Shown here: positions 18,880-22,328 of the stretch, one piece after another | Layout of the letters: the number at the start of each line of letters is the position of its first letter | Numbering within the stretch: position 1 is the stretch's first letter | IMG/VR virus record: IMGVR_UViG_3300034073_000640 | Location: 1-23,017 of that record | Length of the DNA stretch: 23,017 nucleotides | DNA from: a virus | Direction: 5' to 3' (one strand) | The notes under the pieces: generated by a model | Told to the model about the DNA's origin: nothing | Databases searched by the model: none | What the model saw: only the letters and a program-made list of their open reading frames with translations | Translations under genes and position numbers: made by a program

Positions 18880-18909
18880 TTTTAAGCCCGCACAACTGCA
18901 AATAGTGTA

Positions 18910-18940
18910 AGCGGCGCAAGGGATAAGCCCTCACGCCGCT
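18910..18940. other. Stem-loop upstream of the connector gene
   Basis: AGCGGCG (18910-18916) pairs with CGCCGCT (18934-18940), and AGGG (18919-18922) pairs with CCCT (18928-18931) across a small internal loop. No T-run follows on either strand. It sits 30 bases upstream of the GTG at 18879 and directly borders the pentamer repeats, so it may belong to the same RNA structure. Confidence 0.5.
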
Positions 18941-18960
18941 ACTGCCACCGGAGGTGCCCC

Positions 18961-19025
18961 CTGCCATGCCGTGCCACGCCGTGCTCCGCCGCGTTGAGTC
19001 ATGCCACGCCGCGCCGGGCTTCGCC
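18961..19025. repeat. Pentanucleotide periodic tract A (NNGCC, 13 units)
   Basis: The plus strand reads as 13 consecutive 5-base units of the form NNGCC (CTGCC ATGCC GTGCC ACGCC, then less exact units, then ATGCC ACGCC GCGCC). Nine units have exact GCC, the others one or two changes; the phase is kept over 65 bases. On the minus strand, which carries the late genes, this is GGCNN repeated. No protein-coding rationale is convincing, since stop-free frames exist only as shadows. Confidence 0.8.
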
Positions 19026-19028
19026 ACG

Positions 19029-19086
19029 ACCATCCGTTGAGGATGGCAGAGAGGGCTGAAGCCCTCTGTGCCACCGTCTGTGGCCC
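19029..19086. repeat. Three-hairpin module, copy 1
   Basis: It contains three consecutive stems: CCATCC/GGATGG (19030-19035 with 19041-19046, loop GTTGA), AGAGGGC/GCCCTCT (19050-19056 with 19061-19067, loop TGAA) and GCCAC/GTGGC (19070-19074 with 19080-19084, loop CGTCT). A second copy lies 127 bases further along. Confidence 0.8.
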
Positions 19087-19151
19087 TTGCTTAACCCCGC
19101 CCAACCGGGCCATGCCCTGTCCAGCCACGCCACGCCGGACCATGCCGGACC
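19087..19151. repeat. Pentanucleotide periodic tract B (NNGCC/NNACC, 13 units)
   Basis: Thirteen units of five bases in unbroken phase, from TTGCT TAACC CCGCC to ATGCC GGACC. Seven units end in exact GCC and most of the rest in ACC. The tract is 65 bases long, exactly the length of tract A. Confidence 0.72.
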
Positions 19152-19155
19152 TGCA

Positions 19156-19210
19156 ACCATCCGTGAGGATGGCAGGGAGGGAAGACCCTCCGTGCCACCG
19201 TCTGTGGCCC
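19156..19210. repeat. Three-hairpin module, copy 2
   Basis: The same three stems as copy 1: CCATCC/GGATGG (19157-19162 with 19167-19172, loop GTGA), GGAGGG/CCCTCC (19176-19181 with 19186-19191, loop AAGA) and GCCAC/GTGGC (19194-19198 with 19204-19208, identical loop). The outer pair of the second stem is G-C here and A-T in copy 1, a paired change that preserves the stem. Confidence 0.8.
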
Positions 19211-19284
19211 ATACCCGACCAAGCCCGGCCCAACCCGCCTTGCCGCTCCTAACCAGAACCGATCACGCCATGCCGCGTCGCGCT
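19211..19284. repeat. Pentanucleotide periodic tract C (about 15 units, degenerate)
   Basis: Five-base units continue (ATACC CGACC AAGCC CGGCC CAACC), slip by one base near 19239, then resume in a new phase (TTGCC GCTCC TAACC through ACGCC ATGCC GCGTC GCGCT). It ends about 30 bases before the stop codon of the gene at 19315. Confidence 0.6.
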
Positions 19285-19314
19285 GGGGCTTACACCTTGC
19301 GGATGCCCAGTGCA

Positions 19315-19905
19315 TCAGACCACTTCCGCATGAAAGCGGCCATGCTTCGGTCGCCAATCACCGATGCCAACTAGCTTGCCGGCATCGGCGGCGATCTCCT
19401 CAATGTCGCGCAGGTTCAGCACGTCGGGGTCGTACTGGGCAAATGCGATGCAGCCCCAGCTGCGGAAGATTGGCCGGGTGCGCATCACCTTCGCCATACC
19501 GACACGCACGCCAATCGTATGTGTGTAATAGCCTGACTCGAACATGCCAGCCAGCGTGTCGTCGTTGATCTCGTGTGGCTTGCCGTCAAAAATCAGCGTC
19601 GCGTGCTGGGTGAAGAACAGGCCGCATTTGGCCTGAGGCCCGCGCTTGCTCTTCTTGGCGCCAGCGATCATGGCGCTCTCGATCACGTAGTCAGGGATGA
19701 CCAGATCATCGGCTGAGCGGTAGATGCCGGCCAGCCACTCAAGCCGCGCCAATTCGTCGAAGTCGGCATCAACCTTTTTGCGCTTGCTGCTCACGGCCTT
19801 CATCGCCTTGGCGTAGGTATTTCGCGGATCGGCGGTCTGACCGTTGTGGCACAGCAATGGGCTCACGCCCTGCATGTGGATCTTGATCTCTGGGAGATTG
19901 GACAT
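19315..19905 (-). CDS. Conserved phage protein of unknown function between HNH and the repeat array
   Basis: A 196-residue protein beginning MSNLPEIKIHMQGVSPLLCH. Distinct blocks are PLLCHNGQTADPRNTYAKAM (about residues 16-35), a Lys-rich stretch SSKRKKVDADFDELARLEW, LVIPDYVIESAMIAGAKKSK, a central VRVGMAKVMRTRPIFRSWG and the C-terminal AGKLVGIGDWRPKHGRF. From memory this pattern recurs in siphophages near the terminase and portal genes, but I know no assigned function. Start choice: 19905 or the ATG at 19875 (M11); both leave the conserved blocks intact. The 137-base overlap with the HNH frame is large. Its stop codon overlaps an ATG that opens a 74-codon frame into the repeats. Confidence 0.75.
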   Translation of the reverse strand: MSNLPEIKIHMQGVSPLLCHNGQTADPRNTYAKAMKAVSSKRKKVDADFDELARLEWLAGIYRSADDLVIPDYVIESAMIAGAKKSKRGPQAKCGLFFTQHATLIFDGKPHEINDDTLAGMFESGYYTHTIGVRVGMAKVMRTRPIFRSWGCIAFAQYDPDVLNLRDIEEIAADAGKLVGIGDWRPKHGRFHAEVV

Positions 19906-20251
19906 TGCGTCGCGGTGTTCTTGTGGGTGGTGTCAGTGATGGTGCTGAGACGTGAACAGCAGGCACTTGCTTGCGTGGGTCGAGCTTGAAGCGTTGGCGG
20001 CGGACTGAATTGGTGATGCCGTCGTGGCACTCGGAGCACAGCGTCAGAAGGTCTGACAGCGGCTCGTGGCCGAAAGACGGGTAGCGAAAGTCCGGTGGTC
20101 CGGCATTGCGGTGGTGGACCTGCAGGGCAGGCCAACTCAGCTCGACCAGTTGCTGCTGCGTGATGCCGCAGCCTTGGCAGGTGTGCTGATCGTGTTCGAG
20201 TCGTTGCTGTCGCTTGCGCTGCCATGCGGCAGAGCGGTAGTAGTCCTCCAT
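19769..20251 (-). CDS. HNH endonuclease
   Basis: A 160-residue protein from the ATG at 20251, beginning MEDYYRSAAWQRKRQQRLEH. The HNH fold is explicit: HTCQGCGITQQQL (first CxxC), LQVHHRNAGPPDF (the conserved HH), then LLTLCSECHDGI (second CxxC with the final His). These give the zinc sites and catalytic His. Phage HNH proteins beside terminase genes can assist cos cleavage or packaging (family knowledge); a free-standing homing endonuclease is the alternative. The frame is open upstream to a GTG at 20293, but that start would lie inside the palindrome at 20263-20294. The last about 45 residues overlap the next gene and lack HNH character, so translation may run past the functional domain. 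Confidence 0.88.
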   Translation of the reverse strand: MEDYYRSAAWQRKRQQRLEHDQHTCQGCGITQQQLVELSWPALQVHHRNAGPPDFRYPSFGHEPLSDLLTLCSECHDGITNSVRRQRFKLDPRKQVPAVHVSAPSLTPPTRTPRRNVQSPRDQDPHAGREPIAVPQRSDRRSAKYLRQGDEGREQQAQKG

Positions 20252-20262
20252 TCGGGGTAGCC

Positions 20263-20294
20263 TGTGGGCAGATCGCAGTGCGATCACACCCACA
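20263..20294. promoter_or_regulatory. Extended inverted repeat, probable operator between divergent genes
   Basis: The perfect core GATCGCA-G-TGCGATC (20271-20285) is flanked by matching outer arms TGTGGG (20263-20268) and CCCACA (20289-20294). It lies between the HNH start (20251, minus) and the ribbon-helix-helix start (20313, plus). Position and symmetry fit an operator controlling both divergent genes. Confidence 0.7.
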
Positions 20295-20312
20295 ACATAC
20301 CACGATCAGAGC

Positions 20313-20474
20313 ATGGCGCAAGGGGTACGGGTCCAGGTGGTGCTGCCGCCAGCAGTCGCAGAGCAGCTCAGGCAGCGGGCCGCAGACCAGTCGCGCACGG
20401 TCTCGAACCTCGCCGCCTTCATGATCGAGGCCGCGCTGCGCTCACCAGCCATCGACGAACCCAGGCCCAGCTGA
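20313..20474 (+). CDS. Ribbon-helix-helix (CopG/Arc-like) DNA-binding protein
   Basis: A 53-residue protein and the only credible plus-strand gene in the window. It begins MAQGVRVQVVLPPAVAEQLR, the beta-strand (VRVQVVLPP) plus first helix of the ribbon-helix-helix fold, and continues with a second helix around TVSNLAAFMIEAALR. Size and layout match small CopG/Arc-like regulators, which dimerise to insert the paired strands into the DNA groove (family knowledge). The last 33 bases overlap, antisense, the 3' end of the large terminase gene. Its start is 18 bases beyond a strong palindrome, the expected autoregulatory operator. No toxin-type partner gene is evident next to it. Confidence 0.78.
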   Translation: MAQGVRVQVVLPPAVAEQLRQRAADQSRTVSNLAAFMIEAALRSPAIDEPRPS

Positions 20475-22328
20475 AGGGGCTCTGCGACGTCTTGCCGGTG
20501 GCTTTGCTGTGGTTGTTTGTCGTTGTTCAGCAGCTGCAGCCTCTAATTGATCCCACATGGTCGCTCTGTTGTAGCGGCGCTTCACCAGTTCGAGCATTGC
20601 CAGCGCATAGACGCATAGATCGAGCGGTTCGTTGCGGGCACCGCTGGGCTTCTCCCATGTGAGCACCTGAAAGCCCTTCACGGTCTTGGGCACCAGTCGT
20701 TCGCAGGTGAGTCCCTGCAGGAACTCCTCGGTCACGTCGTTGCCGAAGTGGATACTGCCCGGGCCGGTGCTGTCTTTCTTCAGGCGGGCGTAGATCGTGC
20801 GCTTCAGCGTGTCGCCGCCGACCATGTAGAGCATCAGGCCTTTCTTCACCAGCCGGCCGCGCCAGTTCACGTCCACCTTGCTGCCCTTGCCCAGGGCCGG
20901 TGCTGCCTTGGTGCTGCTGCCTTTGATCGCCACCACGCCCTCGGCCGCTCGGGCCCGGCAGAACTCATAAGCCTCTTGTGTGAAGTGGCCGCCGGTATCA
21001 ACAGCGCAGTGGCGCACGGTGAGGATGCCGCCACCTTCGCGTGGCCATTGCGTCTTGCGGATGCTGTCGATCTGCTGCCACACGTCGTCGTAGGCCGGGC
21101 TGCCTTCGACCTTCTGGTGCCAGATGCGCCACATCTCCTCGCCGCGGCCAAAGCCCCAGACGGTGGTTTCGAGCCAGGTGTCCTGGACGTCTACCGCCAT
21201 GAGCAGGAGCACGACGCCCTCGGGGCAGGTGCCGCTGCTGTAGCCGTCGCCCTGCGCCCGGGCCATGAGGCCATCGGCGTTGATGGCGGCCACTGCCTCA
21301 TCCTCCCAAGCCTCAGCGGCCCGTTTGTTCACCCAGCCTTTCAACAGCAGCGGGTCAGTCTTGGCCCTGAGGAATTCATTACGGATCTGCCCCCAGCTGG
21401 TCCAGCCAGCCGGTGCGTACCAGGCGGGCAGATGAAAGCCGGCAGTGATGCCATCGCCCTTGGCGGTCGCTTGCCACTGGGCGCCAGTGAGCATGGATGT
21501 TTTGTGGTGCTCGCTCACGCGCTCACCGCAGGCTGGGCACTGCGCGAACACTTCCCCATCGGGGGTGTCCCATTTCATGTGCTCACGCCAGCGCAGCACC
21601 TCGAGGGCACCGCAGCAAGGCATCCGCATGGCCAGCTGCCGGCGATCACTGCGCTGCTCGAACTCGTGCGTGATGCGGCACATGCCACGGGTGCCTGGTG
21701 TGCTGGTGATCAGCACCTTGCCCATCGGAAAGGTGGAGGTTCGAGCTTCGGCGTTCTCGAGCGGATCGCCCTTGTCGTCGGCCTCGAACGGGTAGGAGCT
21801 GACCTCATCGGCCAACAGGTAGGCCGCAGGCATCGACTGCAGACCGCTGCCGCTGTTGGCGCCGGTAAGCACAAACAGTCCGCCTCTGAACTCCTTCAGA
21901 AACATGGTGTTTCCTGAGTCGCGTGCCCGGGCCGGTGCGATCAGTTCAGACAGCACTGGTGTCTCACGCAGCAGGGGCTCAAGTCGCTGCCGGTTGAGAC
22001 GCTTTGCCATGTCCAGCGTCGGCTGCACCAACAGCGTCGGGGCCGGCCACAGGTGAATGATTGCGCCGAGCCAGTTGAGCACCACTTCGGTCTTGCCGAG
22101 CTGACTGCCGAACATCAGCACCACGCGCCGGTAGGGGCTGGTAGGGCTCAGGCATTCCATCGGCTCGCGCAGGTACGGCGTGCGATCTGTGCGCCACGGG
22201 CCAGGCTCCGCTGAGCCCTTGGTGCTCAGCACGCGATGGCGATCAGCCCATTGCGCCACCGTCATTGGATCAGCAGGCCGCAGACCCTCACGAAAGGCCT
22301 CGGCATAGATCAGGGCAGCATCAGCCAT
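20442..22328 (-). CDS. terL: Terminase large subunit (GpA type)
   Basis: A 628-residue packaging motor and nuclease. The ATPase domain has Walker A GSQLGKT (residues 74-80) after VVLMF, Walker B YLLADE (170-175, acidic D174/E175) and coupling motif LITSTPG (207-212). A zinc-ribbon insertion follows: CCGALEVL and FAQCPACGERV (C238, C239, C264, C267). The C-terminal nuclease has acidic strand motifs LLLMAVDVQDTWLETTVWG (D380, D383) and VRHCAVDTGGHFTQEAY. It ends in an Arg/Ala/Pro-rich tail. The zinc insertion and layout are those of the lambda GpA family, which makes cohesive ends in lambda (family knowledge). It overlaps the small subunit stop by 8 bases. The 3' end overlaps the plus-strand regulator gene. 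Confidence 0.95.
   Translation of the reverse strand: MADAALIYAEAFREGLRPADPMTVAQWADRHRVLSTKGSAEPGPWRTDRTPYLREPMECLSPTSPYRRVVLMFGSQLGKTEVVLNWLGAIIHLWPAPTLLVQPTLDMAKRLNRQRLEPLLRETPVLSELIAPARARDSGNTMFLKEFRGGLFVLTGANSGSGLQSMPAAYLLADEVSSYPFEADDKGDPLENAEARTSTFPMGKVLITSTPGTRGMCRITHEFEQRSDRRQLAMRMPCCGALEVLRWREHMKWDTPDGEVFAQCPACGERVSEHHKTSMLTGAQWQATAKGDGITAGFHLPAWYAPAGWTSWGQIRNEFLRAKTDPLLLKGWVNKRAAEAWEDEAVAAINADGLMARAQGDGYSSGTCPEGVVLLLMAVDVQDTWLETTVWGFGRGEEMWRIWHQKVEGSPAYDDVWQQIDSIRKTQWPREGGGILTVRHCAVDTGGHFTQEAYEFCRARAAEGVVAIKGSSTKAAPALGKGSKVDVNWRGRLVKKGLMLYMVGGDTLKRTIYARLKKDSTGPGSIHFGNDVTEEFLQGLTCERLVPKTVKGFQVLTWEKPSGARNEPLDLCVYALAMLELVKRRYNRATMWDQLEAAAAEQRQTTTAKPPARRRRAPSAGPGFVDGW

Follow-up and report, generated by a model that had tools for sequence, protein, structure and literature searches.

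What is the five-base-periodic, GC-rich array between positions 18961 and 19284, and is it an RNA, a protein gene, or a DNA site? Among short periods, period 5 alone stood out strongly in the window (the whole stretch of DNA analysed, 23,017 nt), and it lay where the preliminary description, made from the letters alone, had placed it. In-phase GC or CC dinucleotides reached 11/13 at the array, with no comparable place elsewhere in the window, so the period is real and unique there and not a product of chance. A log-odds scan returned tracts at 18961-19035, 19087-19151, 19211-19235, and 19235-19284, confirming the array and placing the limits first proposed right to within a few bases. The unit had been read as NNGCC on the plus strand and GGCNN on the minus strand; the periodicity held, with the correction that the minus strand is the gene strand and that the unit is GGY-NN.

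Read on the minus strand, the array consists of three repeat tracts, each followed by a folded 3′ tail, which are called here vrRNA1 to vrRNA3 after the system identified below. The vrRNA1 tract (19211-19274; NN = AT GT CG CT TA GC AA G- TG CG TT CG AT) had been given as about 74 bases and was revised to about 13 units; it is degenerate because one of its units has 4 bases and several of its GGY cores are broken. The vrRNA2 tract (19087-19151; NN = CC AT CC GT GT TG AG AT CC TG GG TA AA) and the vrRNA3 tract (18961-19025; NN = GA CC GC GT AT TC GC GG AC GT AC AT AG) have 13 units each, as first counted, and also hold a few non-GGY units. The two hairpin modules of 55-58 bases seen between the tracts are present, each being in fact three consecutive hairpins: the tails of vrRNA1 (19157-19210), with covarying stems, and of vrRNA2 (19030-19086). 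A third, diverged tail, that of vrRNA3, occupies about 18903-18960 and ends in a strong hairpin, GCGGCG...CGCCGC. Related contigs carry the same three-hairpin modules and phase-locked tracts at the same locus. The array is therefore not a peculiarity of one genome, as its absence from relatives would have implied, but is kept in related phages together with the neighbouring gene.

The view that no credible protein runs across the array, and that it is a noncoding element acting at the RNA level, was borne out. Because the unit is five bases long, similar peptides result whichever of the three frames is read, and such ORFs are annotated in some mycobacteriophages, as a translated, frame-tolerant, Gly/Ala/Arg-rich low-complexity protein would predict; yet no frame is depleted of stops by comparison with arrays whose units were shuffled (minimum-frame stops, 22 observed against 19.6 expected), units are gained or lost in fives, which shifts the frame, and the same array is annotated differently between near-identical phages. 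Taken together, these observations make translation highly improbable. The order of units in the tracts showed neither an RNA fold signal nor selection for an open frame, and we found no support for the packaging or recombination element that had also been proposed.

Directly upstream of the array on its sense strand lies a gene of 196 codons (19315-19905, minus strand), assigned to PHROG 4652, where its function is listed as unknown. The upstream genes of 89 loci with similar arrays shared a weak consensus, 40 of them matching PHROG 4652, and a profile iterated from the window gene detected homologues at 108 of 158 loci, in most cases near one side of the array. No usable model of this family was obtained from Pfam, NCBIfam, or PADLOC. 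Among solved structures the family profile matched one, 36pp, "SUSP1 Vipr protein" (E = 4.3e-39); searched by itself with phmmer, the window protein matched chain 36pp_D (E = 1.5e-23). The AlphaFold (AF2) model of the protein had a pLDDT of 96.4, and its top Foldseek matches were Csm3/Cas7; 55 PDB matches had E ≤ 0.001, and the best 50 of these 55 were all CRISPR effector entries, mostly Csm3/Cas7. The product is thus a Vipr homologue, predicted to be a RAMP/Cas7-like guide-RNA binding protein, with the glycine-rich loop and near-invariant G176, G180, R185, and G189 close to the C-terminus. Cas7/Csm3 RAMPs of class 1 CRISPR systems make periodic protein contacts along the guide RNA, and the fold of the predicted Vipr model resembles theirs. 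Unlike those systems, the window has no CRISPR array, no other cas genes were seen in it, and its guides carry their information in a gapped (NNx), not a contiguous, form. A CRISPR-Cas array of identical direct repeats and contiguous spacers was accordingly rejected: TRF found no tandem array, since the units are too degenerate, and targets are matched with gaps.

The match to the solved structure supplied the name VIPR; a literature search on phage pentanucleotide repeats gave nothing relevant. The first description of VIPR (Viral Interference Programmable Repeat), from April 2026, is of a Vipr protein with vrRNAs made of GGY/NN repeats and a folded tail, reading DNA as NNx (PMC13142463). Published vrRNA tracts have 9-16 YNNGG repeats and skip one nucleotide, and the systems are sorted into types I-VII by Vipr phylogeny, with accessory genes vap1-6 (PMC13142463). 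Every testable element of the window fits this system, including tracts of 13, 13, and about 13 units, and we put at about 95% the probability that the array supplies the guide RNAs of a VIPR system carried by a Synechococcus siphovirus. As a positive control, our scan recovered the arrays of SUSP1.

Each tract is followed by a conserved structured tail. In 17 tails of the lineage the first two helices were 98.4% paired, with both partners altered in 8 of 11 pairs, compared with 41-60% pairing in slid controls. An alternative pairing, between the second and third stem strands of the tails at 18903-19210, covaried equally well and excludes the first; the tail may therefore alternate between two folds, or both strands may take part in one of higher order. 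An Rfam search of the window and 20 loci returned no family, and a tRNA/tmRNA search of the window returned none.

If the NN pairs are guides, they should find targets. A first, unfocused scan with 354 tracts against all collected loci gave just a slight excess at a skip of one base; a lineage-focused set gave a clear result. When 24 guides of the lineage were scanned against 154 of its loci (1.3 Mb) with skips of 0, 1, 2, and 3, skip 1 gave 137 significant sites for 5 of the 24 guides, while skips of 0, 2, and 3 gave no significant site for any guide in the same loci, and unit-shuffled guides gave none in 12 replicates. In 137/137 sites the skipped base was the codon wobble base, although the sites are not independent, being homologous copies of about four target sites. 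The one-nucleotide skip is thus observed on natural DNA targets, and these lie in competing mobile elements, namely sister phages that include the cultured S-CBS1 and S-CBS3, in a search biased to this lineage.

The sites fall in terL and in the head-tail joining gene. The terL C-terminus KRRYNRATMWDQ is the site of guides from two related contigs (L003 and L008), matched 24/26 in contig L297, 23/26 in S-CBS3, and 22/26 in the window; in the window phage it corresponds to 20544-20582 on the minus strand, KRRYNRATMWDQL, the 22/26 match being to the guide of relative L008/L253. The head-tail N-terminus ATIQWIEPAATD is the site of the L007 guide (23/24), and a site inside the same gene is matched 25/30 by the L256 guide. 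The vrRNA3 of the window, one of the five guides with significant targets, matches related phages 23/26 at the start of their head-tail joining gene, TVP.EITAG. This concentration in terL and head-tail genes is suggestive, not proven, because it comes from about four independent sites and because these genes make up 24% of the searched DNA, the loci having been fetched by terL and portal. The own-genome sites match worse, with 18/26 for L008, 14/24 for L007, and 19/26 for vrRNA3, whose best own match is at the same head-tail gene start; since that match is already 19/26, self-discrimination by vrRNA3 rests on few mismatches. The best match of vrRNA2 is a conserved motif, GQPEGIMQTTGIG, of the major capsid gene of related phages, tentatively its target (21/26, borderline by our estimate). 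For vrRNA1 no significant target was found, a variable offset giving at most 18/24.

Such matches bear on the suggestion that the array is a ligand site of the kind read by TRAP. Part of this suggestion stands, namely a triplet-plus-two period read by a repeated RNA-binding protein; the protein, however, is the RAMP/Cas7-like Vipr and not TRAP, and the two-base NN is the information-bearing part, not a spacer. That a TRAP-like ring protein binds the triplets, with NN neutral and the array serving as a regulatory or sponge RNA, would agree with the formal triplet-and-spacer match and with tract lengths peaking at 10-12 units. Set against this are the occurrence of the TRAP family (TrpBP, PF02081) in 0/49 array-bearing records in a search that detected the Bacillus subtilis positive control, the RAMP encoded next to the array instead, and codon-phased matches of NN to phage genes, unexpected of a neutral spacer. 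We regard this reading as having next to no chance, and at the window locus TRAP is refuted by the decoded targets.

A more serious question is whether the VIPR array of the window phage is decaying or unused. The broken GGY cores and 4-base unit of vrRNA1 and the few non-GGY units of vrRNA2 and vrRNA3 would fit decay, as would the lack of any exact match to the 10-unit patterns of vrRNA2 and vrRNA3 in IMG/VR viral contigs; the vipr ORF, on the other hand, is intact with a high-confidence fold, the tails are intact and covarying, and vrRNA3 matches genes of rivals at 23/26 in codon phase. Decay or disuse therefore appears unlikely.

Similar arrays, as anticipated, occur commonly in other phages, where the annotation of some is that of small hypothetical genes, for example in mycobacteriophages. 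Viral contigs were surveyed with a pattern of six GCCNN units, the stretches analysed being among the matches listed. Among the matches listed, picked by DNA pattern alone, 78 of 119 viral stretches held a GGCNN array and a Vipr homologue, usually adjacent; in the other 41 of these 119 no Vipr homologue was found in the fetched stretch. In 53 of 60 scorable loci it was the gene strand that carried GGCNN, tract lengths peaked at 10-12 units, and many successive tracts were offset by one 4-base unit, GGCA. The GGY (GCC) core was kept across genome G+C contents of 37 to 72% (rho -0.10), whereas the hypervariable position tracked genome G+C (rho 0.52). Pairwise NN diversity exceeded 0.8 in 108 of 117 viral arrays compared with 16 of 119 bacterial ones, matches in bacterial genomes being mostly pure pentanucleotide microsatellites, a different thing. 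A few bacterial-genome matches with diverse NN and a Vipr homologue (L039, from Aureimonas, L052, and L065) are probably prophages. Blastn against plasmids gave chance matches only, and against phages weak matches that led to the mycobacteriophage arrays.

Between near-identical mycobacteriophages (Cheoctovirus), arrays vary in single units as well as in entire tracts. Mycobacteriophages Brocalys, BobaPhett, Saal, Donkeykong, Quico, ByChance, Philus, DRBy19, and Zizzle (L264-L272), isolates grown on M. smegmatis, carry such arrays with GGCA between tracts, an adjoining Vipr homologue annotated as hypothetical, and single-unit and whole-tract differences between 99.5%-identical phages; they offer a tractable laboratory system. 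Four further loci (L144, L181, L227, and L233) have uninterrupted GGCNN tracts of 56-176 units, as against the 9-16 published for vrRNAs. In another (L159:6900-7200), the module between two tracts has a stretch like a tRNA 3′ half (GGAGTCGAACC...), in which ARAGORN calls no tRNA. The survey indicates that guide arrays account for many phage stretches that carry no annotation or are called small Ala/Arg/Gly-rich ORFs.

The phage itself, judged from its sequence, is an S-CBS3-like Synechococcus siphovirus: its TerL is 98.5% identical to that of Synechococcus phage S-CBS3 and 90% to that of S-CBS1 (595 aligned residues). The array had been described as filling the only sizeable gene-free gap; the gap is not gene-poor by accident but makes up the 3′ end of a cassette inserted between terL and the head-tail joining gene, placed by gap-size comparison at about 18880-20441. 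Overlapping the start of vipr is an HNH endonuclease-like gene (19769-20293, minus strand; PHROG HNH families, E ~4e-11; Pfam HNH, 0.0017, below Pfam's own cut-off), a candidate accessory or homing nuclease. Divergent from HNH-vipr is a gene for a small ribbon-helix-helix (RHH) protein (20313-20474, plus strand; Pfam RHH_5, E = 8e-16), a candidate accessory DNA-binding protein or cassette repressor.

The terL/head-tail region was readable in 131 loci, of which 20 had vipr, a partly redundant set with about 9-12 distinct VIPR-positive contigs. The order RHH-HNH-vipr-array between terL and the head-tail gene was found in 20/20 VIPR-positive loci, as was the HNH gene itself; the other 111 relatives had neither vipr nor HNH, and the RHH gene, on the opposite strand, only in VIPR-positive loci. 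The gap between terL and the head-tail gene measured 1.43-1.78 kb in VIPR-positive loci and mostly about 20-160 nt in the 111 VIPR-negative ones, and the cassette ends are conserved among relatives. In VIPR-positive loci TerL is 31 to 100% identical to that of the window, at the same position, so that either the cassette is mobile or the genes beside it are swapped. The same ends (GAGCGCAGCGC... and the terminal hairpin) also enclose other cargo at L301:2563-4415 (also in L363), with ORFs of 221 and 354 aa, while vipr, HNH, and the array are all missing; the site resembles a hotspot accepting different inserts.

Phage HNH homing endonuclease cassettes lie between essential genes, are present or absent among close relatives, and carry an HNH gene. 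The window insertion is alike in all three respects and differs in adding a predicted RNA-guided recognition of the genes flanking the site. We infer that RHH-HNH-vipr-array is an inserted cassette with guides acting against cassette-free relatives, since guides aimed at genes on both flanks suggest competition with cassette-free sisters. More tentatively, at somewhat less than even odds, the cyanophage VIPR would be a mobile RHH-HNH-vipr-vrRNA cassette at one terL/head-tail site, with guides against both flanking genes in cassette-free sisters, that is, a nuclease-linked, RNA-guided marker exclusion.

By analogy with the published system (PMC13142463), the minus strand would be transcribed and processed into three vrRNAs, each a run of about 13 GGY/NN units ending in a folded 3′ tail. 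The small Cas7-like RAMP Vipr would line up on the GGY units and leave the NN pairs exposed to read double-stranded DNA as NNxNNx (protein and DNA binding as in PMC13142463). The guides would be aimed at assembly genes of close relatives (terL, head-tail joining, and probably capsid), and the likely effect would be repression of competing S-CBS-type phages, as repression is reported in PMC13142463. The system of Escherichia phage SUSP1 (PMC13142463; PDB 36pp; NC_028808.2) likewise has a homologous Vipr, a downstream array of several GGY/NN vrRNAs with folded 3′ tails, a one-base skip, and wobble-phased targets in competing mobile elements. It differs in that its Vipr is about 31% identical, its cores are mostly GGU where those of the window are mostly GGC, and the window tail is three GC-rich hairpins. 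The neighbour gene is vap1 in SUSP1 and RHH and HNH in the window, and the guides of SUSP1 target a satellite, those of the window lineage sister phages, in their terL, head-tail, and probably capsid genes.

Priority for VIPR belongs to PMC13142463; new here are the cassette organisation, without mention in the main text of that preprint, and the decoded natural targets. This months-old class of RNA-guided systems is extended to cyanobacterial siphoviruses, its unusual gapped code is confirmed on natural targets in independent data, and testable targets are named in the cultured phages S-CBS1 and S-CBS3. The finding also suggests that VIPR, an HNH gene, and competition between near-identical phages are connected.
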